Origin: Pacificispira spongiicola
GTDB lineage: Bacteria; Pseudomonadota; Alphaproteobacteria; UBA8366; Aestuariispiraceae
Direction: 5' to 3'
Length of the DNA stretch: 64,000 bases
Assembly: GCF_012926505.1 (NCBI RefSeq)
Contig: NZ_JABBNT010000001.1
Location: forward strand, 930,001-994,000
This document shows, one piece after another, positions 4,386-25,185 of the stretch. The notes beneath the pieces are model-generated. The model saw only the letters and a list, made by a program, of their open reading frames with translations, did no database searches and had not been told where the DNA came from. How positions within the stretch are numbered: the first letter of the stretch is position 1; the number at the start of each line of letters is the position of its first letter. A program made the translations under genes and the position numbers.

Positions 4386-4440
4386 TCAATCAACGATGAA
4401 TAGCGGCGGGGCCTTCACTATCCCGCAGGGGAAACCGGAC

Positions 4441-7111: not shown

Positions 7112-8485
7112 TCAGGCGCTCATCCGCAGCGGGGCCCGGTCCGGATTGGGCGCCTTGTGGAATTTCCCATCCTGCATGATCGCGACGATCCGGCTGGGGT
7201 CTTGCAGCATCTTCACGTCGGTCAGCGGGTCGCCGTCGACCAACAACATATCCGCCAGATACCCTTCCTTGATCTGTCCCAATTCGTTGCCCATGCCCAT
7301 GATCTGACCGCCGTAATAGGTCCCGGCCCGGATAGCGTCCATCGGGGAGAAACCGACCATGTCCACGAAATATTCCAGATCTTTCGCATTCGTGCCGTGC
7401 GGGGTCCAGGCGAAGCCATAATCGCCGCCGATCAGAACCCGAATCCCGCGTTTATGCATCTTCTGCATGCTGTCGATCGCGTGTTCCAATTCGCGCTCAT
7501 AGGCGTCGGTCAGGGGCGTGCCCGGCTTGATGCCGTATTCCGCGGCATTGCGTGCGGTATTGATCAACCAAGCGAGTCCGGGCGCGACGAAGTGTTTGTC
7601 CTTGTTCGCTTCCAGCATGTCCAAGGTCTGCTCGTCCGTATAGGACGCATGATAGATGATCTCGATCCCGTGCTTGATACAGCGTTGAACGGATTCCTTC
7701 GAACGGGCATGGGCCGCGACGCGGCGTCCGCGCATCTTCGCTTCGGAAACGGCGCAGGCGACTTCTTCCTCCGTGAACTGGTTTTCCTCGCCGCCCATTC
7801 CGGCGATTTCTTCCCCGGACAGGTTGATCTTGATCGTATCGACGCCCCATTTCATCAACTCGCGCACCTTGCGGCGGACGTCTTCGACACCGCAGACGAC
7901 GATGCCCAAGTTCAAGCCTTCATGCGGAATATGCGGCAGGCTGGCATCGCCCAACCCGCCGAGGGCCGTAATCTCCGGCCCCGCCGCCGTGTAGCGCGGT
8001 CCCGGCACCTTCCCGGACCGGATCGCGTCCCGGATCACGACGTCCAGACGCGGTTTCGCCGCCGCCGCGCCATATCCGGCGGTAAACCCGGCATCCAGCA
8101 CCGTTTTCGCCATATAGACGCAGTTCAGCATATGCTCTTCGATCGGCATCATCTGGATCGGGTTCACGCCCGGCGCGTTGTTCCAGCTGAGATGCAGATG
8201 CGCGTCGATCAATCCGGGCATCAGTGTCATGCCGCGACCATCGACCGTGTGCCGTCCGCTTGCGGAAGAGCCCCAGGACGATCCGCTGCCGAAGCTGCTG
8301 CCGTATCCGCTGCCGCCGCCCGACCGGGCGATCGTCTTGATCCGGTTCCCGGCAACCGTGACGTCGGCGGTAAAGGGCTGTTGGCCCGTTCCGTCCAGAA
8401 CACGCACATTCGTGAACACGATTTCAGGGGTCGTGCGCCCGTTGCCGGACGACCCGCCCCAACCGCCAAATCCAGATTCCGCCAT
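7112..8485 (-). CDS. Metal-dependent amidohydrolase family protein
   Basis: At 457 residues it has the amidohydrolase TIM-barrel landmarks: PGLIDAHLHLSW with the HxH metal pair, later HARSKE and YHASYTD histidines, and LIGGDYGFAW with a C-terminal Asp. It resembles the imidazolonepropionase/prolidase-like branch that hydrolyses cyclic or peptidic C-N bonds; the substrate is unknown. It is the last gene of the long leftward ABC-transporter operon. A Gly/Ser-rich insert (roughly residues 56-78, rich in SGYGSS and GSGSSWG) interrupts the N-terminal beta-sandwich, and the N-terminus is also Gly/Ser-rich, which is unusual for the family. The start has a GGGAG site. Confidence 0.85.
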   Translation of the reverse strand: MAESGFGGWGGSSGNGRTTPEIVFTNVRVLDGTGQQPFTADVTVAGNRIKTIARSGGGSGYGSSFGSGSSWGSSASGRHTVDGRGMTLMPGLIDAHLHLSWNNAPGVNPIQMMPIEEHMLNCVYMAKTVLDAGFTAGYGAAAAKPRLDVVIRDAIRSGKVPGPRYTAAGPEITALGGLGDASLPHIPHEGLNLGIVVCGVEDVRRKVRELMKWGVDTIKINLSGEEIAGMGGEENQFTEEEVACAVSEAKMRGRRVAAHARSKESVQRCIKHGIEIIYHASYTDEQTLDMLEANKDKHFVAPGLAWLINTARNAAEYGIKPGTPLTDAYERELEHAIDSMQKMHKRGIRVLIGGDYGFAWTPHGTNAKDLEYFVDMVGFSPMDAIRAGTYYGGQIMGMGNELGQIKEGYLADMLLVDGDPLTDVKMLQDPSRIVAIMQDGKFHKAPNPDRAPLRMSA

Positions 8486-8513
8486 GGTCGTTCTCCCTAT
8501 CGATGCCGCGAAT

Positions 8514-9293
8514 TCAAGCCGCGGTCTTTTCCAGATGTTTGCGCAGAAGTTCCCCCGTCCGCGACGGGGCTTCCATCGTCATCCAATGGGCAATGCCCGG
8601 TATGATTTCCAATTCCGCCGCCACGATGCGGGATTTGAGAGTTTCCGCCATCGCCACCGGGGCGACCGGGTCTTTCTCCCCCGCCACCAGCAGCGTCGGG
8701 CAGGCAATCGCCGTGTGATCCACGGCAATGGCGTCGGACAAGGCCTCGCAATGGGCGGCATAACCTTCGGGACTTTGGCGCATCAGGCTTTCGCGGACGA
8801 AGGCCTTCACCACCGGATTGGCCTGTCGACAGGCCTCGGACACGCTGCCTGTCGATACCGCGTCCGCAATTCCGGCCATGCCGTCCTTCCGCGCCGCGGC
8901 CGCACGATCCTTCAATCCCTGACGGGCGGCGGGCGGCGGTTCCAGGATGGGCCCCAGCAGCGTCATGCCGCACACCATCTCCGGATGGTCCGCCGCCAGA
9001 TACTGACAAACCACGGTCCCCATGGAATGGCCGACAAGATACGCCCTGTTCGCACCGACGGCGCGCATCCCGTCCCGCACGGCGGCGGCCAATGCCGCGA
9101 TCCCCGGTCGGCCCGGTTTCAAGGGCGACCGGCCCGCGCCGGGCAGATCGAAACGGATCACCCGATAGCCATCCAGCATCGGCATGATCGTTTCAAATGT
9201 ATTCGAATCCCCGCCGAGCCCGTGGATCAGGACGACGGTCGGGCCCTCGCCCGACACTTCCATCACCATGCCGCCCAGTCTGGTATCCGCCAT
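8514..9293 (-). CDS. Alpha/beta hydrolase
   Basis: The protein has 259 residues. The oxyanion region is HGLGGDSNTF, the nucleophile elbow GHSMG supplies the catalytic Ser, VAGEKDPV supplies a candidate Asp, and GIAHWMTMEAP supplies the His. It resembles the 3-oxoadipate enol-lactonase/C-C bond hydrolase group, which opens lactones or cleaves ring-fission products. It starts 3 bp after the fumarylacetoacetate-hydrolase-fold gene and precedes the amidohydrolase by 28 bp, so it is one step in the catabolic end of the operon. The exact substrate cannot be assigned. Confidence 0.88.
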   Translation of the reverse strand: MADTRLGGMVMEVSGEGPTVVLIHGLGGDSNTFETIMPMLDGYRVIRFDLPGAGRSPLKPGRPGIAALAAAVRDGMRAVGANRAYLVGHSMGTVVCQYLAADHPEMVCGMTLLGPILEPPPAARQGLKDRAAAARKDGMAGIADAVSTGSVSEACRQANPVVKAFVRESLMRQSPEGYAAHCEALSDAIAVDHTAIACPTLLVAGEKDPVAPVAMAETLKSRIVAAELEIIPGIAHWMTMEAPSRTGELLRKHLEKTAA

Positions 9294-9296
9294 GGT

Positions 9297-10163
9297 TCAA
9301 ACCTCCGAAATCGGGTTTTCCAGGGTGCCGATGCCGCTGATTTCCACCCGTACCGTATCGCCCGGCATCAGATAGCGTGGCGGCTTGAACCCGATCCCCA
9401 CTCCGGCGGGCGTCCCCGTGGCGATCACGTCGCCGGGCATCAAGGTGATCCCGTTCGAAATCGCCGCGATGATCGTCGGCACATCGAAGATCAAAAGCGC
9501 CGTGTTGGAATCCTGCCGGAGCTCGTCATTCACCCAGCATTTGACCGTCGTATCGGCCAGATCGATTTCGTCCGCCGTGACCGCCACCGGCCCCATCGGG
9601 CAGAACGTGTCCTGGGATTTCCCGATCAGCCATTGGCTGTGCTTACCTTGCAGATCGCGGGCGGTCACATCGTTGATGACCGTATAGCCCCAGACATGGG
9701 ACATCGCGTCCGCCTTGGAGATATTGCGGCCCGCCTTCCCGATGATGACGCCCAGTTCCGCCTCGTAGTCGACGGCGGTCGTAACCGACGCGTCCATCAA
9801 AACCTTGTCGCCGTCTGCGACGACGCTTTCCGGCAGTTTGGAAAACACGATCGGCGCTTCCGGTATCGCGCCCTTCGCCGCGGAGCTGTCGAAACCCGAA
9901 TTGGCGAATTCATGCGCATGTTCGTGGTAGTTCTTACCGACGCAGAAGATATTGCGGCGCGGGCGCGGCACCGGGGCCTGCACGACGACGTCCGACAAGG
10001 GGATCGCCGCCCCCGTCGCGGGTAGGGATTTGCCGATCAGGGCGCCGACCCCAATCTCATCGACCGCGCCGGCGGGCAGGTCGAAGGGTTCGACCGATTG
10101 GCCGTCGTCCGATACGCGGCCGACATGACGGCTGCCATTCCAATCGAAAACCGCGAGTTTCAT
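9297..10163 (-). CDS. Fumarylacetoacetate hydrolase (FAH) family protein
   Basis: At 288 residues this is a typical FAH-fold enzyme. The core includes FCVGKNYHEHAHEF, PIVFSKLPESVV, VDYEAELGVIIGKAGRNIS with the metal-binding acidic residues, and GDVIATGTPAGVG near the C-terminus. Family members hydrolyse C-C bonds in diketo acids, decarboxylate oxaloacetate-like acids, or dehydrate acid sugars. The ATG at 10163 has a GGAGAG site and overlaps the preceding stop as ATGA; the ATG at 10178 would add five residues. Its place in the operon suggests cleavage or decarboxylation of a keto-acid intermediate. Confidence 0.88.
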   Translation of the reverse strand: MKLAVFDWNGSRHVGRVSDDGQSVEPFDLPAGAVDEIGVGALIGKSLPATGAAIPLSDVVVQAPVPRPRRNIFCVGKNYHEHAHEFANSGFDSSAAKGAIPEAPIVFSKLPESVVADGDKVLMDASVTTAVDYEAELGVIIGKAGRNISKADAMSHVWGYTVINDVTARDLQGKHSQWLIGKSQDTFCPMGPVAVTADEIDLADTTVKCWVNDELRQDSNTALLIFDVPTIIAAISNGITLMPGDVIATGTPAGVGIGFKPPRYLMPGDTVRVEISGIGTLENPISEV

Positions 10164-11638
10164 ACTGTATCTCTCCATTGCTCGTCGGGAATAAGGACGG
10201 TCGACGCCGTGGTCTCCCGCGATTCAAGCGCACGATGGGCGGATGCCGCGTCGCTCAATTTGAACCGCTGGCCGATTTCGACCGTGATAATGCCGCGCCG
10301 GATGGCGTCGAACAGGCGATCCGTGGATGCCTTCACCTTGTCCGGCGTGTCTGTGTAATCTCCGTAATTGGGCCGGGACAAAGTCGCGGAACGGCTGGCG
10401 AGCGCGCCGATATCCCGCGGACCGATATCGCCGGATGCCTGACCAAAGCTGACCAGATGCCCGCAGGTCGAAAGCGCCGCCACCGAATGGTCGAACGTAT
10501 CCCGACCGACCGCGTCATAAATAACGTCTGCACCCTTGCCGCCGGTCAGGTCTCGGACCTGATCCTCCAGGCTTTTTTTACCCGGCAGAATAACATGACG
10601 CGCGCCGTTCGCCTGCGCGATACGCGCCTTTTCCGGTGTGGACGTCGCGCCGATTACTGTCGCGCCCAACCGGTTCGCCCATTGGCACAGCATCCGTCCG
10701 ACCCCGCCCGCGGGCGCAAAGACCAGAACCGTCTCGCCCGGCTGCACGGCATGGACGCGATGCAGCAGGAATTCCGCCGTGATACCTTTCAGCAATCCCG
10801 CCGCCGCCGTTTCGTCGTCCAACCATTCCGGCAACGGCACGACCAACGCCGCATCCATCGTCCGAACCGTGGCATAGGAACCGGCGGGCGGACAGGCATA
10901 GCCCACGCGCTGCCCCGATCGCAGATGCGACACATCCGGCCCGACATCGACGACAGTTCCCACCGCCTCCATCCCCAGGACACCGGGGGGTGTCAGCAAT
11001 TTGAAATATCCGGTGCGACAATAGACGTCGATGAAGTTCACACCGATGGCCGTCTGCCGCAGGCGGATCTCGCCCCGGCCCGGTAGCGGCGCAGTTACCG
11101 GCATGACCGTCAGTTCCGACGCGTCGCCATAGCGCGCGATGCCGATCCCCTGCCCCTTGATCTCGCCCTGAACCGGGGCTTGGGAGAAACCGCCGGACTT
11201 TTCCCGGACAACCCGGTCGCGTACGGCTGCAAACCCGGCCTCATACACGCCTTCCGCCACCAGCTTTTCCAGGTGTTTTTCCTGGCCCGGCGGTGTGCGG
11301 AAACTGGATGTCCAGCGCCAGAAGGTCTTGTTCCCGTCCGTGACCGGCTTCAACACCACTTCCGACACGTAATCCAGCAACGGCACATCGGCATCGACGA
11401 TGGTGTATCGGAAGGAATGCGTGCGGTCGTCCAAGGACAAAAGGCGTTCGCGGATATTGTCCCCGCTTTCCAGATCGAAATTGCGCACGCAGCCGACCTG
11501 ATCGGTTTTGCGCCCGTCTTCCAGCAGGCTTTTCCGCACGGCAGGATGCCAGCGATCATGCCCGTTGAAGTCGCGCAAGACCTCCCAGACCGCCCCGATG
11601 GGCGCGTCGATCACGGTGCTGCGGGAAATCCGAACCAT
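10160..11638 (-). CDS. Fusion of an SRPBCC domain with a zinc-independent quinone oxidoreductase
   Basis: The 492-residue protein has two parts. Residues about 1-150 form an SRPBCC/polyketide-cyclase-like ligand-binding domain (MVRISRSTVIDAPIGAVWE, DRWHPAVR). Residues about 165-490 are a medium-chain NADPH:quinone oxidoreductase with GVNFIDVYCRTGYF, the Rossmann stretch VFAPAGGVGRMLCQW and GADVIYDAVGRDTF, and no structural zinc Cys cluster. These domains are usually encoded separately. The next upstream gene is a stand-alone SRPBCC protein resembling this N-terminus, suggesting duplication followed by fusion. Likely role: NADPH-dependent reduction of a hydrophobic or cyclic intermediate held by the SRPBCC domain (inference). 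Confidence 0.85.
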   Translation of the reverse strand: MVRISRSTVIDAPIGAVWEVLRDFNGHDRWHPAVRKSLLEDGRKTDQVGCVRNFDLESGDNIRERLLSLDDRTHSFRYTIVDADVPLLDYVSEVVLKPVTDGNKTFWRWTSSFRTPPGQEKHLEKLVAEGVYEAGFAAVRDRVVREKSGGFSQAPVQGEIKGQGIGIARYGDASELTVMPVTAPLPGRGEIRLRQTAIGVNFIDVYCRTGYFKLLTPPGVLGMEAVGTVVDVGPDVSHLRSGQRVGYACPPAGSYATVRTMDAALVVPLPEWLDDETAAAGLLKGITAEFLLHRVHAVQPGETVLVFAPAGGVGRMLCQWANRLGATVIGATSTPEKARIAQANGARHVILPGKKSLEDQVRDLTGGKGADVIYDAVGRDTFDHSVAALSTCGHLVSFGQASGDIGPRDIGALASRSATLSRPNYGDYTDTPDKVKASTDRLFDAIRRGIITVEIGQRFKLSDAASAHRALESRETTASTVLIPDEQWRDTV

Positions 11639-11645
11639 CGCCGTT

Positions 11646-12083
11646 TCAGCCCCCGAACCGACGCTTCAAGTTATCGAACGCGGCCTGGAACACATTGGTC
11701 CCGATAGTCGACACAAGGTCGTTTTCGGCGGCGGGGTCGCAGTCGAATTCCGCCGTCCATTCCGCGAAGGTCTTGTTGCCGTCGGTGATCGGCGCCAGCC
11801 GCAGGGTCGCGACATAGTTTTCGACCCCCATCGGGCTTTCCAGGATGGCATAGGTGACGGTGAAATCGTAGTCGGACAGAGCCAACAGTTTCTCCCGCAG
11901 GAACCCGCCGTCCTGCAACCGGAAGGCCCTGACGCAGCCGATCTGGTCCGCCGGTTGCCCGCCTTCGATCCGGCTTTCCGCAACTGCCGGAACCCAGTCC
12001 GGCAGCGCATTGAAGTCTCGGACGGAATCCCAGATACGGTCGGCAGGCGCCCCGATGACGGAAGATACGTAGACCTTGGTCAT
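11646..12083 (-). CDS. SRPBCC family protein
   Basis: This is a 145-residue single-domain protein of the START/polyketide-cyclase-like fold, opening with VYVSSVIGAPADRIWDSVRD, the typical first strand and helix. Phrases such as DQIGCVRAF and TDGNKTFAEW recur nearly unchanged in the N-terminal domain of the downstream fusion protein, so the two are paralogues. Members bind hydrophobic ligands in a deep cavity, and some act as cyclases or dehydratases. It starts 3 bp after the flotillin stop and lies 7 bp before the fusion gene, so it is co-transcribed with them. Confidence 0.85.
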   Translation of the reverse strand: MTKVYVSSVIGAPADRIWDSVRDFNALPDWVPAVAESRIEGGQPADQIGCVRAFRLQDGGFLREKLLALSDYDFTVTYAILESPMGVENYVATLRLAPITDGNKTFAEWTAEFDCDPAAENDLVSTIGTNVFQAAFDNLKRRFGG

Positions 12084-12086
12084 GGC

Positions 12087-14156
12087 CTAGCTATCCTCCG
12101 ACTTCTTCGGTGCAGCGACTTCCTTGCCGGTCCCGCTATTGGACCCGCCCTTATTGGCCACGTCCTTGGCCAGGCTGGCCGCGTCTTTCGCCGACCGGAA
12201 GATATCGCCCATCTTCGACACGCCCGCGTTTTCGATGCCGATTTCCTTCATCATCTCATCGATCAACGGGGCCTGGGCACGATAACGCAGGGCGCTCTCG
12301 ATCACCTCGTCCGTCGGGCTGCGGGATCCGCCGCCCGAACCGCCAGTCAGGCCGTCGACATGCAGAATCTTGATGCCCTCGATCTTTTCCATCGGACGAA
12401 CGCTTTCGCGCACGATGCCTTCCAGACGGTCGATCATCTTTTCGCGCAGGCGGCCCGCACGGGCATCCTCGCTCAAGATATTTTCCGCCTCGTTCCGCAG
12501 ACGCTGCGCTTCCGCCGCAACGGCCGCGGTCAGCTTGTCGGCTTCCGCCGCGATCCGCGCGGTATCCGCATCCTTCGCCGCGATCAGACGGTCGACAGCA
12601 GCCAGACGTTCGGCAATTTCCGTCTCGCGGACGGTGGTGACCTTCTCCGCCGCCGCAATGGCCTTCGCCTTCGCGCCTTCCGTTTCGGTCTGGGACGCCG
12701 CTTCTTCCGCGGACTTCTTCAGAACTTCGATCCGACCCGCAATTTCCGCCAGTTCGATCGCCATTTCCCGTTCGACGTCCAGACGGCGCAGATCGCGCTG
12801 CTGAATGATGCGGGCTTCTTCCAAACCGCGATCGGAGGCAATGCGCGACCGCTCCACTTCCTCACGGGCCGCGATTTCCGCCTCTTCAATGGATTGACGC
12901 TGGGCAATCTGCTGCGCGCGCAATTGGCGATCGCGTTCGATCCGGGCCTTGTCGAGAACCTGATCCAGCGCGATCCGGGCCGTGTCGGTATCCTTCTGCG
13001 CGGCGATGCGCGCCGTATCCAATTGCTTACCGCGTGCAATCTCGCGGGTTTCGGTTTCCTCCTCCGCGATGATCTGCGCCTCCCGAAGCTGCCGCTGGGA
13101 CAGGATACGGGCACGCTCGACATCCTCATTGGCCGTGATTTCGGCGCTTTCGATATCGTGGCGCTGCTGAATCTGTTCGTGCCGCAAGGCGCGTTCCTGG
13201 GCAATCCGGGCGCGTTCGATTTCCTCATGCGCCTTGATTTCCGCCTCTTCCAGCGCCCGGCGCCGCTCAATTTCGAAACTGCGCGTTTCCTGCTGGCTGG
13301 CGATGCGGGCCTTTTCCGCCTCGCTTTCGTTGGAAACCTGCGTCCGCAGGATTTCCGCACGCTGTTGGGCCCGCAGGGCTTCTATGGCGCGCTGCTGTGC
13401 CAGTCGCGCGTCTTCGCTTTCCTGTTCCAGTTTCAGGGTTTCGCGTTCCGCCTCCAGATTGCGGGCACGGATCGCCAGCATGGAAGATTGCTCGATATCG
13501 TTGCGAAGCTTGCGCCGCGCTTCGATCGTTTCGATCAACTGGGTCAGACCTTCCGCATCGAACCGGTTGGACGGATCGAAAAATTCCAGATGCGTCTGGT
13601 CCAGATCGGTAATGGCGACCGATTCAAGTTCCAACCCGTTCTGCGCCAGGGCGGACGCCGCGCGTTCCTCAACGGTCGCCACGAAATCGCCGCGCTTCTC
13701 ATGCATCTCATCCAGGGTGCGTTCCGCGGCGACGGAGCGCAGCGCCCCGATGAACTTCCCGGACAACAGACCGGACAATCCGTCCGCATCCAGCGTTCGC
13801 CGACCGAGGGTCGAGGCTGCCGCCGCCACCGCGTCCTTCTTCTGGACGACGCGGACAAAGAATTCCGCTTCGATATCGACGCGCATGCGATCGCGGGTAA
13901 TGACCGCCTGTTCCTTCGTCCGCGTGATCGGGATCCGCACGACGTTCAGATTGACCGGCGTCACCTCGTGCACAATCGGCAGGACAAGCGCCCCGCCGTT
14001 TATCACGACCTTTTCCCCGCCGAGGCCGGTACGCACGAAGGCGACTTCCTTCGTCGATCGGTGATACAGCCAGTTAAGCAGATAGACGACCACCACGATC
14101 GCGATGATCGCCACGATGAGCCACAGGATAATGCTCCCTATCAGGCTTCCCGTCAT
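12087..14156 (-). CDS. Flotillin-like SPFH/band 7 membrane scaffold protein
   Basis: The 689-residue protein starts at MTGSLIGS (ATG at 14156 with a GGGAGG site). It has an N-terminal membrane segment (about 10-30), an SPFH domain (about 35-200) and a very long coiled coil (about 230-540) built of recurring units like ERARIAQERAL, ERARILSQRQL and DTARIALDQVL. A C-terminal segment carries a Gly/Ser patch and a Lys/Ser-rich tail. Flotillins organise membrane microdomains and associate with transport or signalling complexes. Here the gene sits inside an ABC-importer operon between the TIM-barrel and SRPBCC genes, suggesting it scaffolds that system. Confidence 0.9.
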   Translation of the reverse strand: MTGSLIGSIILWLIVAIIAIVVVVYLLNWLYHRSTKEVAFVRTGLGGEKVVINGGALVLPIVHEVTPVNLNVVRIPITRTKEQAVITRDRMRVDIEAEFFVRVVQKKDAVAAAASTLGRRTLDADGLSGLLSGKFIGALRSVAAERTLDEMHEKRGDFVATVEERAASALAQNGLELESVAITDLDQTHLEFFDPSNRFDAEGLTQLIETIEARRKLRNDIEQSSMLAIRARNLEAERETLKLEQESEDARLAQQRAIEALRAQQRAEILRTQVSNESEAEKARIASQQETRSFEIERRRALEEAEIKAHEEIERARIAQERALRHEQIQQRHDIESAEITANEDVERARILSQRQLREAQIIAEEETETREIARGKQLDTARIAAQKDTDTARIALDQVLDKARIERDRQLRAQQIAQRQSIEEAEIAAREEVERSRIASDRGLEEARIIQQRDLRRLDVEREMAIELAEIAGRIEVLKKSAEEAASQTETEGAKAKAIAAAEKVTTVRETEIAERLAAVDRLIAAKDADTARIAAEADKLTAAVAAEAQRLRNEAENILSEDARAGRLREKMIDRLEGIVRESVRPMEKIEGIKILHVDGLTGGSGGGSRSPTDEVIESALRYRAQAPLIDEMMKEIGIENAGVSKMGDIFRSAKDAASLAKDVANKGGSNSGTGKEVAAPKKSEDS

Positions 14157-14169
14157 GATCCGGTCCTCC

Positions 14170-15006
14170 CTATTTCGCCATTTTGACGGCCTTGAAGGCC
14201 TTGGTCTGTTCTGTGAGCGCGACTTCCGTCGGCAGCCTTTCCATCGAAGAGGCACCGTAGAAGCCATGACAATTTTCCGTCCGGGTGAGGACGTATTCGG
14301 CATCCGCGGGCATCGCGACCGGCCCGCCATGGACGAGGATGATCGCGTCCTTGTTTACCTTCAGCGCCGCCGCGGCCCAGGCATCGACCAGTGCCGGGCA
14401 ATCTTCCAGCTTCAGCGACGTTTCCGCGCCGATGGATCCGCCGGTCGTCAGCCCCAGATGGCAGACGATGATATCGGCCCCTGCCGTCGCCATGGCGGCC
14501 GCATCGTCCTCGCAGAAGACATAGGGCGTGGTCAGAAGATCCTTTTCGCGGGCCATCCGGATCATGTCGACTTCCTGGCCATAGGACATGCCCGTTTCTT
14601 CCAGATTGGCGCGGAAAGTACCGTCGATCAGGCCGACCGTCGGGAAATTCTGCACGCCAGAAAAACCGATGGCCTTCACCCGATTCAGATAGTCGTCGAA
14701 GATGCAAAATGGATCGGTGCCGTTCACGCCCGCCAGAACCGGCGTCTTCTTCACCACCGGCAAGACCTCATGACCCATTTCCATGACGACGTCATTGGCA
14801 TTGCCATAGGCCATCAACCCCGACAGCGAGCCGCGCCCCGCCATGCGGTAGCGACCGGAATTGTAGATCACGATCAGGTCGATGCCGCCCGCTTCCTCGC
14901 ATTTCGCGGACAGGCCGGTCCCGGCACCGCCGCCGACGATGGGCGTGCCCGCCTTTTTCATCGCCTGAAACCGTTCCATCAGGTCCTTGCGTTCAAATCG
15001 CGGCAT
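14170..15006 (-). CDS. PEP-hydrolase family TIM-barrel protein
   Basis: The 278-residue protein belongs to the phosphoenolpyruvate-hydrolase/TIM-barrel signal-transduction family. It shows [52 protein letters not shown] and [10 protein letters not shown]. The start overlaps the end of the ABC/Tm-1 fusion gene by 14 bp and has a GAGGA site. In other bacteria and in fungi this family is found next to or fused with Tm-1-like (UPF0261) domains, as here. The reaction is not firmly established for most members. Two further proteins at this locus (22795-23457 and 23461-25185) carry related barrels. Confidence 0.85.
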
Positions 15007-18110: not shown

Positions 18111-18145
18111 CGGGCAATTCCTATACTGCTACCGATCCGACCGGC

Positions 18146-19393
18146 TTATTCGCAGGACGGGTTTTCGCGACCGACCTGGCCGTATTTCAGGAAGTCGTCA
18201 TAGGACAGACCCAAGGTCTGGCTGACCTGCGGGATGACCTTGATCGTCTTGTTCACCAGATTGCCGTCCGGACCTTCCACGACTTCGGTCAGGAAGATGT
18301 CGGCAATCGCCTGACGGCGTTCGTCCAGGGACACCATGCCGGTCGGTGTATCGAAGTTGAGCTTCGACAGCGCCGCCCGGTATTTCGCACCGCCGTCCGA
18401 CAGATCCCCGCCGACTTCATCCAGGGCCAGCAGCGCGGCCTTGGTGTTGATGTAATAGGCATGGGCGAACAGCGACGGCGACGGGAAACCGTCTGGGAAC
18501 TGCTTCTTGTACGCATCGACATAGGCCGCCCAGCGCGGGTCGTCCCAGGTGTCCGAAACCGGACCGGCGGACGGTGTGCCGATGATGAAATCGCGCGTCC
18601 GGCCCTTGGACCCCAGAACCGTCTGGTCCACGGTGATAGAACCGCCGATCAGCGGCAGTTCGCCGCCGGCCTGTTCGTATTGCGTCAGGAAGTTGACGGC
18701 ATCCGCGCCGCCCAGCGCGACATAGATCGCGTCGACATCATCCGGCAGCGCGGCGATGACGGACGAATAGTCCTTGTTGCCGATCGGCACCCAGAAGCGC
18801 GCGTCCACCGGGGCATGACCGCCCAGACGGCAGAACGGCTCCAGGAAACCGAAGACCTGCGTGTAGGGGAAGGAATAGTCTTCCGCCAGAACCGCGACCT
18901 TGCGATAGCCTTTCTCGTTATAAACATACTCGCCCAGACCGGCCATCCACTGGGCCCCTTCCGTCGAGAAACGGAAGAAATTGTCCGCCGGATTGCGCAA
19001 CGTCGTATCCTGCGCCGCCGACGACCCGTTCACGAAAGTCACATCCGGCTGGGTCTTGGCGTAATCCTTGACCGCCAGGCCTTCCGACCCGGACAACGGC
19101 CCGACGAGAATTTGAACGCCGTCCTGTTCCACCAGCTTGCGGGTCGCCCGTACCGCGCTGTCCGGGGAAGCGTCGGACGAACCGGTGACCAGTTCGATCT
19201 TCTTGCCGCCCGCCGTGTAGCCGAATTCTTCCAGCGCCATTTTGACGCCGCGCATGCCGTCCTCGCCCAGGACGGTAAATGCGCCTTCGAGCGTCGCCAG
19301 GGCGCCCATCTTGATCGTGTCCTGCGCCATTGCGGGGCTGGCAACCGCCGCCACCGCCGCGGCCAACAATGTCCTTCTCGCTATCTTGAACAT
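18146..19393 (-). CDS. Periplasmic substrate-binding protein of a branched-chain-type ABC transporter
   Basis: The 415-residue precursor has a signal peptide MFKIARRTLLAAAVAAVASP with likely cleavage after AMA. The mature part is a Leu/Ile/Val-binding-protein-like fold (IKMGALATLEGAFTVLGEDG, NGSSAAQDTTLR, DDVDAIYVALGGADAVNF). The ATG at 19393 with a GGGAGG site is preferred over an upstream frame extension lacking signal features. It lies between the LivM and LivG genes. The ligand cannot be named from sequence; co-encoded hydrolases and a reductase suggest an organic acid or cyclic compound rather than a plain amino acid. Confidence 0.92.
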   Translation of the reverse strand: MFKIARRTLLAAAVAAVASPAMAQDTIKMGALATLEGAFTVLGEDGMRGVKMALEEFGYTAGGKKIELVTGSSDASPDSAVRATRKLVEQDGVQILVGPLSGSEGLAVKDYAKTQPDVTFVNGSSAAQDTTLRNPADNFFRFSTEGAQWMAGLGEYVYNEKGYRKVAVLAEDYSFPYTQVFGFLEPFCRLGGHAPVDARFWVPIGNKDYSSVIAALPDDVDAIYVALGGADAVNFLTQYEQAGGELPLIGGSITVDQTVLGSKGRTRDFIIGTPSAGPVSDTWDDPRWAAYVDAYKKQFPDGFPSPSLFAHAYYINTKAALLALDEVGGDLSDGGAKYRAALSKLNFDTPTGMVSLDERRQAIADIFLTEVVEGPDGNLVNKTIKVIPQVSQTLGLSYDDFLKYGQVGRENPSCE

Positions 19394-19412
19394 CTTCAAC
19401 CTCCCTAAATCG

Positions 19413-20483
19413 TTATGGTGATTGTTCGAGAGAACCGGGGGAATTCCGGTCGCCCCGTGTTTCACGGCCGTCTTTCGTGGAGACGGCGTGCGGAAGCCGG
19501 ATCTTTGTCTTGAACCGGTTCCAAAGCCCCAGAAGTCCATCGGGGGAGAACAGGACCACGAGCAGGAACGCCAGACCGATCACGGTGTTGAAACGTTCCC
19601 GATCGATGAGGTCGATCGCAAAATTTTCCAGAAGCACAAAGGCAATCGCGCCGAGATAGGGCCCGATCGGGCGGCGCATACCGCCGACGACAGCGATGAC
19701 CAGGATATCGATCGCCACGTCGATCCCGACGGAACCGGGCGAAATCCGGCCATTGAACCAAACAAGCAGGACGCCCGCCGTTCCGGCAATCAGGCCGGAC
19801 AGGAAATACGCGGCAACGCGATGCAGCGTGACGTCGTAACCCAAAGCCCGCATCCGGCGGGGATTGTCCCGGATTGCCTGCAGACTGAGGCCGAAGGTCG
19901 ACCGTGCACCATAGGTCACGGCGAAGAAGAAGAAACCGGAGACGACCAGCGTCAGGTAATAGAACGGTGTCGCATCGCGCCAGTAGACGCCCAGCAAGGT
20001 CGGCGGTTCAATCCCCGCATATCCTGTGAACCCGTTGAACAGCGCATAGTTCTGCCGCACGAAGTAGAAGAAGGCGACGGCGATGGCGAGGGTGATCATG
20101 ATCGTATAGATCCCCTCCGTCCGGACCGCGATGGCGCCGATAAAGGCACTGAACAGCGCCGCCGTCAGGATCGATGCGATGACGGTCAACCACCACGGCC
20201 ATCCCAGCCCCATGACGCCCATGCTGTTTTCGCCCAGGATCGCCATCATATATCCGGCGACGCCCGCGACCGTCAGCTGCGCGAGGCTGACCATGCCGCC
20301 ATAACCGGCCAGCATCATCAGCGAAAGGCCGATCGTCCCGAGGATCAGAGAATAGGCACCGATCTGGAATACGAAGAAATCGGACGCGAACCAGGGATAG
20401 GCCAGCAGGAATACACCGGCCACGATCATCGCGGGATGAAGCCCGAACGGATGTCCGGTATCGGTGCGGGTCAGACGGAACAT
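19413..20483 (-). CDS. Branched-chain-type ABC permease (LivM-like)
   Basis: The 356-residue membrane protein has about 8-10 hydrophobic segments. It shows the LivM signature stretches SLMMLAGYGGMVSLAQ near residue 55, the EAA-like region with LQAIRDNPRRMRALGYDV, and RRPIGPYLGAIAFVLLEN near the C-terminus. It starts 1 bp after the LivH stop and precedes the solute-binding gene by 19 bp. With the LivH-like protein it should form the membrane channel powered by the two ATPases. Confidence 0.92.
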   Translation of the reverse strand: MFRLTRTDTGHPFGLHPAMIVAGVFLLAYPWFASDFFVFQIGAYSLILGTIGLSLMMLAGYGGMVSLAQLTVAGVAGYMMAILGENSMGVMGLGWPWWLTVIASILTAALFSAFIGAIAVRTEGIYTIMITLAIAVAFFYFVRQNYALFNGFTGYAGIEPPTLLGVYWRDATPFYYLTLVVSGFFFFAVTYGARSTFGLSLQAIRDNPRRMRALGYDVTLHRVAAYFLSGLIAGTAGVLLVWFNGRISPGSVGIDVAIDILVIAVVGGMRRPIGPYLGAIAFVLLENFAIDLIDRERFNTVIGLAFLLVVLFSPDGLLGLWNRFKTKIRLPHAVSTKDGRETRGDRNSPGSLEQSP

Positions 20484-20484
20484 G

Positions 20485-21495
20485 TCAGCGCCCCCCCATG
20501 ATGCCCTGCGGGCGCACGGCCAGCACGACCACCATGATCAGGAAGGTCAGCACCACCCCGTATGTCGGGAAATAGGCGAGCCCGAACTGTTCCGCCAAAC
20601 CGATCAGCAAGGCCCCGATCGCCGCGCCGGAAACGGAGCCCAGCCCGCCGACGATGACGACGACGAGCGACGCCAGCAGGTATCGAATATCCTCCCCCGG
20701 CGCGATGGAAAGCGCCGTGCCGCCGACGACGCCGGCAAAGCCCGCCAGCCCGGCCCCGATCGCGAAGACCAGGGCGAAGACCAGTTGCACATTGACGCCG
20801 GACGCGGCCAGCATTTCCCGGTCGTTCACACCGGCGCGGATCATCATGCCGATCCGCGTCCGGTTCAGGAACAACCACAGACCGATGCCGACCCCGACGG
20901 CCGCCGCCAACACGGCAAGGCGGTAGACGGGATATTTCACGAAAACGGCGTCGCCGGACGATTTAAGGACGGATACGATCGGCAGGGTCGCCGCCCCGAA
21001 CAGCCATTCCGGCGGCTGGAACTGATAGGTCGTCCCGGTCCAGATCGCCAACATGATATCCGCCGCAACAATCGAAATACCGATGGTCACCAGGGTCTGG
21101 CGCAGATCGTCCCCTTCCATCCGGCGGAAAATCAGCACCTGCAGCAACACGCCGCTTGCGGCGACCGACAGGAAGGCAACGGCGAGTCCCAGGAACCAAC
21201 TACCGCTGGCATCCGCGACCTCGTAACCGATATAGGCGCCCAGAAGATACATGGAGCCATGCGCCAGATTGACGTTGCGCATCAGGCCGAAGACCAATGT
21301 AAAACCGCTCGCCACCAGGAAGTAGAGGCCGCCGAGCGTGATCCCGTTCAGCAACGTGTTTACGAAGGTCTTCTTCCGGCCGATGGCGTCGACCAACCAA
21401 TCCGGCCATACGGCAAAAATCATCCACAGACCGACGGCAAGCATCAGCCCGATGACAATCGCCCAGAAGGTGTGCCGTTCAATGAAACTGCGCAT
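20485..21495 (-). CDS. Branched-chain-type ABC permease (LivH-like), first gene of the operon
   Basis: The 336-residue membrane protein has LivH hallmarks: NGITLGGLYFLVASGFTLVFG followed by RNVNLAHGSMYLLGAY, and VLTFLIMVVVLAVRPQGIMG at the end. The ATG at 21495 is used; a GTG at 21504 with a close GGAG is an alternative adding three residues. It is the first gene of a leftward operon running to 7112, where successive genes are separated by at most about 35 bp or overlap. The promoter should lie in the AT-rich region to its right, shared with a divergent GntR gene. Confidence 0.92.
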   Translation of the reverse strand: MRSFIERHTFWAIVIGLMLAVGLWMIFAVWPDWLVDAIGRKKTFVNTLLNGITLGGLYFLVASGFTLVFGLMRNVNLAHGSMYLLGAYIGYEVADASGSWFLGLAVAFLSVAASGVLLQVLIFRRMEGDDLRQTLVTIGISIVAADIMLAIWTGTTYQFQPPEWLFGAATLPIVSVLKSSGDAVFVKYPVYRLAVLAAAVGVGIGLWLFLNRTRIGMMIRAGVNDREMLAASGVNVQLVFALVFAIGAGLAGFAGVVGGTALSIAPGEDIRYLLASLVVVIVGGLGSVSGAAIGALLIGLAEQFGLAYFPTYGVVLTFLIMVVVLAVRPQGIMGGR

Positions 21496-21504
21496 CGGTG
21501 CCAC

Positions 21505-22087
21505 CGTCTCCGTCCGTACGGGAAGATACGGCGGACCACCTGCCGGCCCGACGGGACCATGGCATCCGATTACTCCTCCCTGTCGCGCCGCATCCTCGCG
21601 GCACAGCGATTTTTCGCGCGTCCGATCGGTCTAAATCGAACTCCCGGTCTGTCGCCGGTTGCGTACTGTAGCTTGACCCGTCTCCAATCGCGCCGCAACG
21701 GGCGGATTTAATTATTTGGGTAATTTTGGGTATTCTATGTACCAAATTTTGCGATTCCCCGGAGTCTTGCACTGCAGCAAAAAACCCGGAAAAACCGCCT
21801 TTATATGTTCCTCTTTGGGAGAACACGCCGCGTGAACGGCCCCAAACAACCCGCATTTCCGCCACTTCCACCCTCACAACTGATCCAATTATTGAACCAA
21901 TTCTCTATTTATTGGGTTCAATAGAACCAATATGGTTTATTTAATCAAGAAGATTTCACAATTTTTTTGACAAACTAGACCAATTGAACCTATTCTAATC
22001 CCAGAAACATCCCGTGGTTCTCTTGGATTTTCGGCACTCCGCCGCCGCACACGGGCATTGGACGACAGGGTAAGGACCAGAAACCGG
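21505..22087. promoter_or_regulatory. AT-rich divergent promoter region with repeated operator-like half-sites
   Basis: This gap of about 580 bp separates the leftward transporter operon from a rightward GntR gene. From about 21710 to 22000 it is much richer in A+T than its surroundings. It contains ATTGAACCAAT (21891-21901), the inverted pair GGTTC (21915-21919) and GAACC (21924-21928) within a near-palindrome, and CCAATTGAACC (21980-21990). These share a GAACCAAT-type half-site and are the natural candidates for binding by the adjacent GntR protein. A short tandem TTTGGGTA repeat occurs at 21715-21732. No convincing sigma-54 promoter was seen. Confidence 0.6.
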
Positions 22088-22795
22088 ATGTCGGTGACAC
22101 TTTCCGTCAGAATCGCCGATCAACTGCGCAGCGACATCCAGGGCGGGGCGTTTTCCCGTGATGGACGCCTGCCGACGGAACGCGATCTTGCTGCACGATT
22201 CGATGTTGCCCGTAACACGGTCCGCCGCGCGATAGAGAACCTGCGGGATGAAGGGTTGGTGGTCTGCCATGTCGGACGCGGCACCTTTATCGCCCGCCAG
22301 GACACTTTCCAGACCGCGTCTCTCGCCTCTACGGCGCCGTCTCTTGCCAAGGCATTGTCGGCAACCGTGATCGCCGATATCAGCCCGCGTGACTTAATTG
22401 AGGCCCGTCTGATGATTGAGCCCGCGGTGGCCGCCGCCGCCGCCGCCAATGCGACGGAAGGCGACATCCAGAAACTCCTTCACGCCCAGGCCGCCTCCGC
22501 CGCGACCGAGGAAATGGAGGAGTTCGAGCATCACGATGCGGAAATCCATAAGCTCCTCTTCGCCATGGCACAGAACCAGGTCGTCATTCTGGTCGACGAT
22601 ATGCTGGCGTCCCTGCGGGCGAATGCCGACTGGCTTGCTGCCAAGCGCCGGGCCTATTCGCCCGCGTTGAAGGCGCGTTACGTCGCGCAACATGCGGATA
22701 TCATCGAGGCTATTCGTCAGCGATCGCCGAAAGCCGCACGGGCGGCGATGGTTGTCCATTTGGAAGAAGTACGCCGCGTTCTGCTGGAACTCTGA
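22088..22795 (+). CDS. FadR-family (FCD) GntR transcriptional regulator of the ABC/TIM-barrel locus
   Basis: The 235-residue protein starts at the ATG at 22088 (the frame extends to a TTG at 22058). It has an N-terminal winged helix (LSVRIADQLRSDIQGGAF, LPTERDLAARFDVARNTVRRAIENL) and a C-terminal FCD domain with conserved acidic and His positions (EARLMIEPAVAAAAA, EEFEHHDAEIHKLLF, QHADIIEAIRQRSPKAARAAM). It is divergent from the transporter operon across a region with repeated GAACCAAT half-sites, so it probably represses that operon and itself. Its stop overlaps the next start (TGATG), coupling it to the small TIM-barrel protein. Confidence 0.9.
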   Translation: MSVTLSVRIADQLRSDIQGGAFSRDGRLPTERDLAARFDVARNTVRRAIENLRDEGLVVCHVGRGTFIARQDTFQTASLASTAPSLAKALSATVIADISPRDLIEARLMIEPAVAAAAAANATEGDIQKLLHAQAASAATEEMEEFEHHDAEIHKLLFAMAQNQVVILVDDMLASLRANADWLAAKRRAYSPALKARYVAQHADIIEAIRQRSPKAARAAMVVHLEEVRRVLLEL

Positions 22796-23457
22796 TGCCG
22801 GTTCTGACATGGGAAATCGCCGCACGAGCGCCGTCGGAATCGCTGCCGTCCCGGATTGTGACGGAACGCCCGCCGCTGCCCCCCGACCGTTTCCCGCCGG
22901 AAATCGGTCTACTGTTACCCGCCGCGCGTGAAGGGAACGGTATTCAATCCTTTATGACCGACATGCCCGACCCGGGAGGTACGGCCGTCGGGATGTTCTT
23001 GGCCAATCCATTTCTAAATGTGTCCCGAACCGCCCGGCACCTGATCGACAGCGGCATTCAATGGATCAGTAACTTTCCCAGTATCGATCAACAGGACATC
23101 GACTTCGGACAACAATTGGACGATGTCGGGTTGGACCGGACCTTCGAATTCCGAACGCTGAAAACCTTTGCCGACACGGGACTCAAATCCCTGGCCGTGT
23201 TGTGCGATCCGGCAGGCGTTCCAGGGGCATTGGCGTCCCGGCCCGCGGCGGTCCTGACCGTCCCCCGGGTAGCGGACTTTGCGGCGGGCCTTCCATCGAT
23301 GCGCTATCGGGGCACCCTCGCCGATACGATCATGGCGGCACTGCGCGAGGCTGGCTGGAACGGGCCGGTTCTGGCAATCGGGACACGGATCGAGGCCACC
23401 TCGCCGACGCTTTGGCCTGATATGATCGATGGATTGCTGCTGCGCCCCGCGCCGTAA
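22795..23457 (+). CDS. Short, diverged PEP-hydrolase-like TIM-barrel protein
   Basis: The 220-residue protein has no obvious catalytic assignment. The middle (about residues 85-175) aligns by eye with the PEP-hydrolase-family protein of this locus: ANPF for TDPF, GIQWISNFPSID for [12 protein letters not shown], and LDDVGLDRTFEFRTL for the [16 protein letters not shown] region, followed by LAVLCDP for YVFCED. The Gly-rich first strand and the GGP/ERxP motifs of the C-terminal third are missing, so it may be a partial or non-catalytic barrel. It is translationally coupled to the GntR regulator and ends 3 bp from the convergent barrel-NtrC fusion gene. Confidence 0.6.
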   Translation: MPVLTWEIAARAPSESLPSRIVTERPPLPPDRFPPEIGLLLPAAREGNGIQSFMTDMPDPGGTAVGMFLANPFLNVSRTARHLIDSGIQWISNFPSIDQQDIDFGQQLDDVGLDRTFEFRTLKTFADTGLKSLAVLCDPAGVPGALASRPAAVLTVPRVADFAAGLPSMRYRGTLADTIMAALREAGWNGPVLAIGTRIEATSPTLWPDMIDGLLLRPAP

Positions 23458-23460
23458 GCT

Positions 23461-25185
23461 TCAGCCGGACAAGCCGTACCGCTTGATCTTGTTGTAGAGC
23501 GTCTTGCGCGACATGCCGAGAGATTCCGCCGTCCGGCTTCGATTGAAACCGTTCCGCCAAAGGGCATCCAATATGCGTTCCTTCTCCCCGCCCCGCGCGA
23601 CCCGGCCCGCCGCCCCGCTAACCGGATCGGATGCCGCCAACCGCGCCAGCACCGCGTCTTCCGGGATCGGACCGGACCGCGCCATTGCCGACAGATCGCC
23701 GATGACGGCGTCCAACTCCGCCTCGTTTCCCGGCCAGGCATGCGCGGACAAACGTTGTACCGCCGCCGCGGTGAAGGCAGTCCGTGTCAGGGACGGCTTC
23801 CGGTCTTCCAGCAAATCGAACAGGTCTTCCACACGTTCGCGCAAAGGCGGCAGGCGTAGCACGTTCCCGCCGACGATATCGAGAAGCCCTTCGTCCAATC
23901 CGGAAATCGGCATCCCGGGCACTTGATCCGCCTGTTGTTCGTGGATCAAGGCAACACGCGGCAAAACGGGAAGTCGCCTCCACGTGCCGGGCGCACGAAA
24001 CGCCCCATCCGCAAGCGCCCGCGCCAAACGCCGCTGAACCGTCAGAGGCAACCGGTTCACATGACGGATGGTCAACAGCCCGACAGCGGGATCGGCAAGG
24101 CCCGGTCGACGCTTTTCCACCGTATCCCGGTGCCCGAACAACAGCGTCCGAGCCCGTCCGGGATGCTCTTCCGCGCCGACATCGATCCCTACGACAGATC
24201 CGTCCTTTTCCTTCTGCAATGCGGACAAGACGGTCGCCTCCGGGCTTCCCCGCTCGACAATCAGCAAAATCGGTCCGTCCGATTCCTGGACCAGCTTCAG
24301 CTTTCGTAGAAACTCGATCAGCGCCGGGGAACGGCCCTTGAACCCGTTCTGTCGCCCCCAGCTCAACAGGCGTTCTGTTTGCATGTCTCTCGCGTTCCGG
24401 CTACGGCTCGCGTGCCGAAACCTGTCGATCTGATCGGCAATCGACGCTTCCAACGGCATCCGTTCGAAGGTGGATCCCCCGACATAACCGTCTATGTCGG
24501 TTAGGCGGTTCACCCGCGACAGGTCCTCCGCGGTCTCAATGGGCCCGCCTTCCAACAAAAACCGCGTCTCCGGATTGATCTTTTTGACGAGACGCCCGAC
24601 CTCTCGCGCCACAGAGGCGACTTCTTCCAGTGAGGCACGGCGTCGATGACCGACCATACCGCCGACATTCCACCCCAAATTCAGGCAGATCATGTCGATC
24701 CCGGCATCCGCCGCCAGCCGCGCCTGCATGCGCGTGGCACAATAGAACATGGCCGTCATGCCGCGATCCTGAACCGCCCGCAGCAAGGCGACTTCCGCCT
24801 CGATACCGCGGCCCGCAGCGGACAACAATTGCTGCATCGGCCGGGAGTAATGCATGCCGCTTGGAAAGTTCGTAACCCCCGCGAAACCGGACGCACTCAC
24901 GGATTCCGCGAGGCGCTCGACATCCCAGTCCGCGTCCCATACGGCACAGCCCAACAGCACCGGCACTTTGCAACGTGGCAACAGTTCTTCCTCGGCAAAC
25001 GCGCGCGTCAGCCGGTTCGCATCGAAGATCGGCAACATGCAGGCAATCGACGGCGCCCCCATCGCCCGCAAGCGACCGGCATTGATCGCCAACAGAAAGT
25101 CGACACCGCCGCGTTCCGCCGCAAGCGCCGTACTACCGGAGCCGATGGCCGCGCCGATTAAAAAGTCTTTGTGCTTCCGGCTCAT
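23461..25185 (-). CDS. PEP-hydrolase-like TIM barrel fused to a degenerate NtrC-type AAA+ module and Fis HTH
   Basis: The protein has 574 residues. Residues 1-258 form a TIM barrel of the PEP-hydrolase family (GVTNFPSGMHYS, LEGGPIETAEDL, GGSTFERMPLEASI). Residues about 285-505 resemble the sigma-54 activator AAA+ domain but are degenerate. The Walker A site reads ERGSPEAT (311-318) without Gly-Lys, LFGH (349-352) survives but the GAFTGA loop is absent, and the Walker B acidic pair is replaced (TIRHV). PPLRER (446-451) and WPGN (484-487) remain. Residues 533-572 are a Fis-type HTH (RTAESLGMSRKTLYNKIKRYG). It likely binds DNA and senses a ligand through the barrel, without ATP-driven sigma-54 activation. 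Confidence 0.85.
   Translation of the reverse strand: MSRKHKDFLIGAAIGSGSTALAAERGGVDFLLAINAGRLRAMGAPSIACMLPIFDANRLTRAFAEEELLPRCKVPVLLGCAVWDADWDVERLAESVSASGFAGVTNFPSGMHYSRPMQQLLSAAGRGIEAEVALLRAVQDRGMTAMFYCATRMQARLAADAGIDMICLNLGWNVGGMVGHRRRASLEEVASVAREVGRLVKKINPETRFLLEGGPIETAEDLSRVNRLTDIDGYVGGSTFERMPLEASIADQIDRFRHASRSRNARDMQTERLLSWGRQNGFKGRSPALIEFLRKLKLVQESDGPILLIVERGSPEATVLSALQKEKDGSVVGIDVGAEEHPGRARTLLFGHRDTVEKRRPGLADPAVGLLTIRHVNRLPLTVQRRLARALADGAFRAPGTWRRLPVLPRVALIHEQQADQVPGMPISGLDEGLLDIVGGNVLRLPPLRERVEDLFDLLEDRKPSLTRTAFTAAAVQRLSAHAWPGNEAELDAVIGDLSAMARSGPIPEDAVLARLAASDPVSGAAGRVARGGEKERILDALWRNGFNRSRTAESLGMSRKTLYNKIKRYGLSG

Follow-up and report, generated by a model that had tools for sequence, protein, structure and literature searches.

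An importer ATPase fused to a UPF0261 domain and an enzyme-related regulator barrel mark an apparently undescribed conserved operon of Pacificispira spongiicola

We analysed a stretch of 64,000 nucleotides of the Pacificispira spongiicola genome (positions 930,001 to 994,000 of contig NZ_JABBNT010000001.1, assembly GCF_012926505.1; hereafter the window), in which twelve leftward open reading frames (ORFs) form one tight operon (7112-21504, minus strand). Together with its regulators, the operon makes up a real, conserved system of importer, enzymes and regulator that is apparently hitherto undescribed. It encodes LivF-UPF0261, a fusion of an ATP-binding cassette (ABC) importer ATPase to a domain of the UPF0261 family, next to PEPH, a barrel of the PEP_hydrolase family, and the same barrel family recurs in a nearby regulator, termed PEPreg. 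We base our account on the gene content and its conservation, on a single clade of fusion proteins, on the exchange of a downstream module, on residue changes in the regulator barrels and on the association of a promoter box with the regulator. The system is likely dedicated to uptake and catabolism, with an enzyme-derived barrel as its sensor; possibly, its import step is coupled to phosphorylation of the compound taken up, which would be aromatic or enolic. In the open literature that we searched, a scope outside which many subscription papers fall, we found neither the cluster nor the LivF fusion described, and nothing on the box or on the exchange of back ends.

An initial annotation, made from the letters of the window alone, had proposed twelve leftward genes separated by gaps of at most about 35 bp. 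All twelve are in place, each with its family backed by Pfam or NCBIfam; the largest intergenic gap is 35 bp, and elsewhere neighbouring genes overlap. In the order of transcription they encode LivH, LivM, a binding protein of the Peripla_BP_6 family, LivG, LivF-UPF0261, PEPH and a flotillin, followed by an SRPBCC protein, an SRPBCC domain fused to a quinone-reductase-like domain (QOR), a fumarylacetoacetate-hydrolase-fold enzyme (FAH), an alpha/beta hydrolase (ABH) and an amidohydrolase (AMH). The start codons of the flotillin, the binding protein and LivF-UPF0261 are our own choice. With two BPD_transp_2 permeases, two ATPases and a Peripla_BP_6 protein, the operon holds all the parts of a HAAT-type ABC importer. 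Some PDB matches of the binding protein are, we presume, aromatic-acid binders of Rhodopseudomonas, and they are not used as evidence here. The nearest solved relatives of AMH are an arginine carboxypeptidase and an Xaa-Pro dipeptidase, with ochratoxinase lower in the list. A second flotillin gene lies elsewhere in the same genome (G000:C1:229741-230097), so the operon has a flotillin of its own.

The 'Tm-1 fusion' of the initial annotation is indeed a fusion, and its partner can now be specified as the importer ATPase LivF, joined to both the N and the C domain of UPF0261. The protein has 765 residues, of which about 28-255 belong to LivF and 357-752 to the two UPF0261 domains (PF06792, 206.5 bits; PF23189, 299.4 bits; cut-offs 27 and 27). 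Between the halves of 67 fused loci lies a linker with a median length of 85 residues (range 56-206), which is rich in Ala, Pro and Glu and thus fits a flexible tether. Walker A, signature and Walker B motifs, read by eye from the translation, are all present in the LivF half, and the UPF0261 half retains 53 of the 53 positions that are at least 99% invariant across 90 domains. Judged by these residues, both halves of the fusion look intact.

A structure model of the UPF0261 part (predicted local distance difference test score, pLDDT, 87.4) aligns in VIA-align with plant Tm-1 (Z 45.4, root-mean-square deviation (rmsd) 1.7, 384 residues aligned) and with PDB entry 9mpy (Z 31.7, rmsd 7.1, 387 residues aligned, 30% identity). 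Structural kin outside the family itself (PurE, flavodoxin-like proteins, a cutinase and others, Z about 9-11) were judged to be common arrangements and set aside. Entry 9mpy, released in September 2025, is Saro_1862, a UPF0261 domain protein of Novosphingobium aromaticivorans with acetovanillone bound; by sequence it shares 33.7% identity with the window domain over 386 aligned residues. Acetovanillone catabolism in N. aromaticivorans begins with the single-component kinase MarK, as stated in the accessible part of PMC13101465, and Saro_1862 is probably MarK. Since 36 of the 53 invariant positions are common to the window domain and this acetovanillone-bound protein, it is reasonable to read the tethered UPF0261 domain as a putative member of a kinase family, and by analogy the structure makes an aromatic substrate more likely. 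For another aromatic kinase, HpeHI, the accessible part of PMC9618137 suggests that phosphorylating a hydrophobic aromatic may maintain the uptake gradient and prevent loss. By the same analogy, a kinase domain tethered to an importer would trap a hydrophobic aromatic where it enters.

An alternative is that UPF0261 acts as an ATP-binding regulator or an importer assembly factor rather than as a kinase, which would leave PEPH the sole enzyme of the pair. Such a role would suit a domain fused to an ATPase. Moreover, plant Tm-1 works by binding viral replication proteins, and catalysis goes unmentioned in the accessible part of PMC5028733. We nevertheless consider this alternative unlikely, given the 36 shared positions and a UPF0261-PEPH pair in Vibrio that has no ABC importer annotated in the 17 kb of its surroundings read.

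We then surveyed how far the cluster extends beyond the window. The fused gene was present in all five other genomes of the genus searched, with the full cluster in four and a contig end inside it in the fifth. Among 385 genomes of a class sample, 50 carry UPF0261 (49 over the cut-off), and in 19, the window's included, it lies in an open frame of at least 765 residues; each of the other 18 such genes is a LivF-UPF0261 fusion (18/18). Every genome with PEPH over the cut-off also carries UPF0261, in 38 of 38 cases in the class sample and 27 of 27 in a phylum sample of 398 genomes that overlaps it; in the latter, UPF0261 occurs without PEPH over the cut-off in 11 of 38 genomes. A link between the two families has been noted before. 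In the accessible part of their paper, Yang et al. 2016 report that proteins of both families occur in bacteria, archaea, fungi and plants, that a tomato gene with both UPF0261 and PEP_hydrolase confers virus resistance, and that genes for UPF0261 and for TBST (PEP_hydrolase) are found together and evolve in concert, and they propose an interaction (PMC5028733). The words ABC and transporter are absent from the main text of that paper.

For a closer view of gene content, one scan of genome contigs gave, after removal of duplicates, 108 loci, 49 of them fused and with at least 7.5 kb on both sides; the loci were gathered by likeness to window proteins or through the class samples, and counts among them are not natural frequencies. 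PEPH, flotillin, at least two SRPBCC places, the binding protein, LivM and LivH are found in 47 of the 49 fused loci, and LivG in 48. The SRPBCC count is of distinct places, recounted after the two SRPBCC queries (SRPb and SRPq) were seen to cross-match. None of the core genes tested lies on the opposite strand. Thus, the importer, flotillin and enzymes are not scattered independently in relatives, a neighbourhood check that the initial annotation had asked for, and its view that the set is too specific to be a chance assembly is borne out by recurrence of the same content in other genera and families. To our knowledge, the UPF0261-PEP_hydrolase pair has no established joint reaction.

The 23 well-covered unfused loci look different: PEPH is present in 22 and SRPBCC in 12, and flotillin in one (L109), which counts as unfused solely because a masked stretch covers the expected place of livF. 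These figures bear on a further alternative, namely a membrane-stress or detoxification unit built around flotillin, to which the importer would be secondary. The presence of flotillin in 47 of 49 fused loci and the two SRPBCC proteins, which are of a lipid-binding type, would agree with it. Against this stand the near absence of flotillin from the unfused loci and the finding that the importer and the UPF0261-PEPH pair are the parts common to the simpler loci, and we give this alternative very little credence.

Downstream of the common core, the fused loci fall into two main types. QOR, ABH and AMH occur in 25 of 49, and 23 of these also have FAH (type A); a molybdenum hydroxylase of the xanthine-dehydrogenase family with a split large subunit occurs in 21 (type B), 19 of them with a MoxR-type ATPase. 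Three loci have neither back end and none has both. In type B, for instance in L080, the SRPBCC nearest to the QOR-fused one is a separate gene that immediately precedes the FAD subunit. The window SRPBCCs and one type-B SRPBCC, considered apart from the QOR domains, match PF10604/PF03364 alone; an assignment to CoxG was dropped, no COXG Pfam match being obtained at E 0.001 for these sequences.

In a maximum-likelihood tree of 93 UPF0261 domains, the 62 fused rows all group within a single clade of 64 rows (support 100/99). The two extra rows are L102, where livF and UPF0261 are separate genes, and L104, on a contig that starts just ahead of UPF0261. The 19 molybdenum-type rows lie within one clade of 23 rows (99/91), the other four of which belong to no group. 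QOR-type rows occupy both remaining parts of the fused clade; with a root among the unfused rows, this probably makes QOR the ancestral back end, exchanged a single time. We take the two back ends to be alternative solutions for one kind of intermediate.

The initial annotation had counted three barrels of the PEP_hydrolase family and suggested that the family serves both as enzyme and as sensor. Two of the barrels stand: PEPH belongs to PF09370 (427.2 bits) and keeps the family-invariant residues, and the barrel of PEPreg matches the family with 211 bits. The third does not pass as a member. It is the 220-residue product of 22795-23457, whose gene overlaps that of the GntR regulator, and it scores 20.4 bits against a cut-off of 33.8; its fold is nonetheless nearest to 2p10, the solved structure of the PEP_hydrolase family. 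The top Foldseek PDB matches of its model (pLDDT 88.7, from 13 sequences) are six 2p10 chains with TM values of 0.58-0.68, and an earlier 'half barrel' label was dropped because the modelled fold is so close to 2p10. The double use as enzyme and sensor is supported, with the sensor part resting on the residues and the promoter box discussed below.

Among the PEPH sequences, H183 and H226 are each retained in 100 of 102, and D128 and R132 in 102 of 102. In 23 of 23 regulator barrels, position 183 is N and position 226 is E; the place of D128 is most often S (12/23) and that of R132 is Q in 19 of 23. In eight more regulators, too, neither histidine is found (position 183 is N, D, G or V; position 226 is E or G); among them is that of L027, which had failed an earlier length filter, was added later and has V and E at the two places. 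Thus, both histidines are gone in 31 of 31 regulator barrels, and many other PEPH-invariant residues survive. Judged by its residues, the regulator barrel looks like a binding domain that evolved from an enzyme, which would make it a putative sensor.

PEPreg itself has 574 residues and faces the GntR/22795-23457 gene pair. Its AAA domain reaches 20.0 bits for Sigma54_activat against a cut-off of 20.2; a relative in L137 passes this cut-off. The GAFTGA loop is absent from all 29 sequences of a first set, the window protein included, and from six further ones, and a Walker A pattern, which the window protein lacks, occurs in 5 of the 29 and in 2 of the 6; the set of 29 counts four genomes twice. 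Because the GAFTGA loop is missing and Walker A mostly so, PEPreg of the window is, by its motifs, not a normal sigma-54 activator. In agreement with the missing loop, the pattern used detected no sigma-54 promoter upstream of livH in 19 upstream regions. A gene of the 22795-23457 type is present in exactly the 16 PEPreg-bearing loci among the 49 fused ones, and the PEPreg clusters of Sinorhizobium NGR234, Mesorhizobium japonicum, Azospirillum and Qingshengfaniella likewise contain small PEP_hydrolase-like genes. PEPreg was counted with the PEPreg_c query alone, since PEPH matches inflate the count of PEPreg_b.

By counting common words in 19 promoter regions, 17 of them from loci with PEPreg, we found repeats of TACCC. 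Of the 19 fused loci that have PEPreg, 14 carry an exact TACCC-N5-TACCC (the PEP box) at most 600 bp upstream of livH, and 18 carry the box if one mismatch is allowed, the miss being L119; its orientation is constant across these loci. In 40 fused loci where no PEPreg was seen it is found in none, exact or with one mismatch (Fisher 9e-10, exact boxes). When the promoters were shuffled, exact boxes averaged 0.02 and 0.1 in 19. In the window's genome, the exact pattern has two matches, one being the operon promoter, compared to ten for a reversed control pattern.

A second set consisted of 40 further loci searched over their whole length. PEPreg is present in 11 of these, and in L146 it lies about 27 kb off on the same plasmid. 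Exact boxes occur in 9 of the 12 loci with PEPreg and in none of the 28 others, or of 27 if L141 is dropped, which is part of the contig of L033, a locus with PEPreg. Of the three misses, L143 and L144 have intergenic boxes with one mismatch and L027 has none in three stretches tested. Several positives are close relatives and not independent of each other. They include sugar-importer clusters of rhizobia and Qingshengfaniella as well as Azospirillum clusters, and therefore the box tracks the regulator rather than the type of importer. Separately, of 8 loci with a GntR gene close by, 7 have a TTGGTTCAA-type repeat, compared to 1 of 51 others; it is a candidate GntR site, for which the case is weaker than for the PEP box. 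No common operator palindrome appeared among the simple palindromes listed for the promoter regions.

The UPF0261-PEPH pair also occurs in other surroundings. In NGR234, Rhizobium leguminosarum, Qingshengfaniella, Bosea and Terrarubrum it lies beside sugar ABC importers, Gfo/Idh/MocA oxidoreductases and cupins, and in Bradyrhizobium sp. 184 GH88 and ribokinase genes are found in the region of the pair. In Thermomicrobium, it is accompanied by a branched-chain importer, FAH, a xanthine dehydrogenase subunit and parts of phosphoenolpyruvate (PEP)-utilising enzymes. The pair is a portable core beside varied importers and redox enzymes, and its substrate may vary; given the sugar-type importers, not every pair need handle aromatics. 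The same neighbours would suit a sugar-like or cyclitol substrate for the system at large, with the pair acting on a keto-sugar or sugar-acid intermediate. This seems improbable to us for the window, whose lineage has instead a branched-chain-type importer, SRPBCC, QOR and FAH, and where no sugar-type importer or sugar enzyme family is prominent among the Pfam and NCBIfam matches of the operon.

Further details of these loci may be recorded. In L130 (Thermomicrobium roseum), PEP/pyruvate-binding and PEP-utilising genes at 13377-18908 near the pair are, by their names alone, reminiscent of HpeHI-type two-component kinases. L144 (Terrarubrum flagellatum) has two UPF0261-PEPH pairs in one cluster (9974-12044 and 17253-19317). 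In L155 (Bradyrhizobium sp. 184), the pair stands beside an FAD oxidoreductase and a pyruvate kinase (10813-16332), and the locus has two exact PEP boxes, with PEPreg about 27 kb off. PEP as the product of the pair, an idea raised by the pyruvate kinase gene of Bradyrhizobium sp. 184 and the PEP-utilising genes of Thermomicrobium, was set aside because two loci are too few.

From these data we infer all activities, the order of steps, a substrate class, DNA binding and the direction of regulation. Small, probably aromatic or enolic compounds would be captured by the binding protein and imported by LivHMGF. At the importer mouth, the LivF-tethered UPF0261 domain would phosphorylate the substrate with ATP and thereby trap it, and PEPH may next act on the phosphorylated intermediate by hydrolysis or C-C cleavage. 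SRPBCC proteins on a flotillin platform would ferry a hydrophobic intermediate or a quinone to the redox back end, which in the window is QOR, with FAH, ABH and AMH acting after it, and in the sister lineage the molybdenum hydroxylase. PEPreg would sense a pathway intermediate through its barrel, in which the two PEPH-invariant histidines are lost, and bind the direct repeat with 10-bp spacing in the operon promoter, and GntR and the second, degenerate barrel may modulate PEPreg. As a whole, this dedicated uptake and catabolism with a tethered kinase, PEPH, flotillin and SRPBCC, a redox back end and a barrel sensor is the best explanation available, and we favour it with moderate confidence. 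More tentatively, the system may represent an ABC importer with a built-in small-molecule kinase, trapping its substrate in a manner like group translocation, in which the fold of the partner enzyme was duplicated as an altered-site sensor acting via a direct-repeat box. The initial annotation, which had suggested uptake and breakdown of a perhaps cyclic compound, is partly supported overall.

A number of observations count against the favoured explanation. Seventeen of the 53 invariant UPF0261 positions differ in Saro_1862, and the 53 were defined after three divergent rows (L029, L052 and L127) had been dropped; the window domain is closer to plant Tm-1 (42-44% identity) than to Saro_1862 (30-34%), and we know of no kinase activity in the Tm-1-like branch. 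That Saro_1862 is MarK is probable, judged by organism, ligand and date. The operon has no gene for an Hpe-type biotin carboxylase, the genomes not having been searched for one. Of the 50 class genomes with UPF0261, 12 lack PEPH over the cut-off, two metagenome-assembled chromosomes (L099 and L100) have the fusion without the rest of the cluster, and elsewhere the UPF0261-PEPH pair stands beside sugar-type importers. PEPreg is absent from 9 of 25 type-A loci. Of the eight further regulators, seven keep R132 and five keep D128 (L071 has gaps at both), so those two losses are confined to part of the family. Finally, 17 of the 19 PEPreg loci in the first box count had served for its discovery, and some of the 40 loci without PEPreg are short contigs on which it may be out of view.

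The coordinates of all features are collected in Table 1. Convergent with the operon, the region 4396-6998 (plus strand) encodes a RuBisCO-like protein nearest to OiaX (417 bits, cut-off 700) and a kinase nearest to OiaK (408 bits, cut-off 700). They are preceded at 1062-4312 by ORFs that, named by eye from their sequence, we take to be aldehyde-dehydrogenase-like, GntR-like and NAD-binding-dehydrogenase-like.

Table 1. Genes, domains and promoter elements of the operon and its regulators, in window positions.
Feature	Position	Strand	Basis
LivH-type permease, first operon gene	20485..21504	-	Pfam
LivM-type permease	19413..20483	-	Pfam
Periplasmic binding protein, start about 19393	18146..19540	-	Pfam Peripla_BP_6, 180.9 bits
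LivG-type ATPase	17241..18110	-	Pfam, NCBIfam
LivF-UPF0261 fusion with Pro/Ala/Glu-rich linker	14993..17290	-	Pfam, NCBIfam, PDB matches, linker survey, model of UPF0261 part
UPF0261 domain of the fusion, residues 357-755	15026..16222	-	Pfam, PDB matches
PEPH, PEP_hydrolase-family barrel with family-invariant residues	14170..15006	-	Pfam, 427.2 bits; 2p10, E 1.8e-120
Operon flotillin; ORF open from 14330, start 14156 chosen	12087..14156	-	Pfam Flot, 115.1 bits
Stand-alone SRPBCC (Polyketide_cyc2)	11646..12083	-	Pfam, 94.3 bits
SRPBCC fused to NADPH:quinone-reductase-like medium-chain dehydrogenase/reductase (QOR)	10160..11638	-	Pfam PF10604 and ADH_zinc_N; NCBIfam PRK10754, 259 bits (cut-off 348)
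FAH, fumarylacetoacetate-hydrolase-fold enzyme	9297..10178	-	Pfam, 245.6 bits; solved relatives
ABH, alpha/beta hydrolase, enol-lactonase (PcaD)-like, under PcaD cut-off	8514..9293	-	Pfam, NCBIfam
AMH, amidohydrolase (Amidohydro_1), last operon gene	7112..8485	-	Pfam, 112.9 bits
GntR/FCD regulator, divergent from operon	22058..22795	+	Pfam
Degenerate PEP_hydrolase-like barrel ('PEPhalf')	22795..23457	+	Pfam, 20.4 bits (cut-off 33.8); model pLDDT 88.7; Foldseek 2p10
PEPreg: PEP_hydrolase barrel, degenerate AAA domain, Fis-type helix-turn-helix	23461..25185	-	Pfam
PEP box TACCCAAAATTACCC, direct repeat upstream of livH	21718..21732	-	only exact copy in window
TTGGTTCAA/TTGAACCAA-like repeats, candidate GntR sites (weak)	21880..21995	.	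motif association across loci

The operon provides a physical link of import to a kinase-family domain, and its two natural downstream chemistries narrow the candidate intermediate. Its regulator has a predicted DNA site that can be used for finding the inducer. If the link of UPF0261 to aromatics is true, marine and soil bacteria would share a widespread, unrecognised route for ring compounds.

Several known systems resemble the one described here in part. Saro_1862, probably MarK, belongs to the same UPF0261 family; MarK is a single-component kinase according to the accessible part of its source, whereas the window domain forms one chain with an importer ATPase and has PEPH as its partner. 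Plant Tm-1 and Tm-1L have the same two domain families and the same UPF0261 fold; there, as the accessible part of PMC5028733 describes, UPF0261 is fused to TBST/PEP_hydrolase, whereas in the window it is fused to LivF and PEPH is separate. The Hpe/Acv pathway, with its hydroxyphenylethanone kinase, carboxylase and phosphatase, opens by phosphorylation of the substrate, again according to the accessible part of its source (PMC9618137), as we infer for the window; its kinase HpeHI is a two-component enzyme related to phenylphosphate synthase. NtrC/PspF-type sigma-54 activators combine an AAA-derived domain with a Fis-type helix-turn-helix as PEPreg does, but PEPreg and its relatives lack GAFTGA in 35 of 35 sequences, have Walker A in 7 of 35 and carry a PEP_hydrolase barrel as sensor. 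CoxG, described as a quinone-binding protein in the accessible part of PMC13240472, offers an analogy to type B, since with CO dehydrogenase an SRPBCC-type protein likewise stands by a molybdenum hydroxylase. Finally, HAAT (branched-chain amino acid/urea-type) importers have the same LivHMGF and Peripla_BP_6 components as the window, from which they differ in that LivF of the window bears a second, enzyme-like domain.

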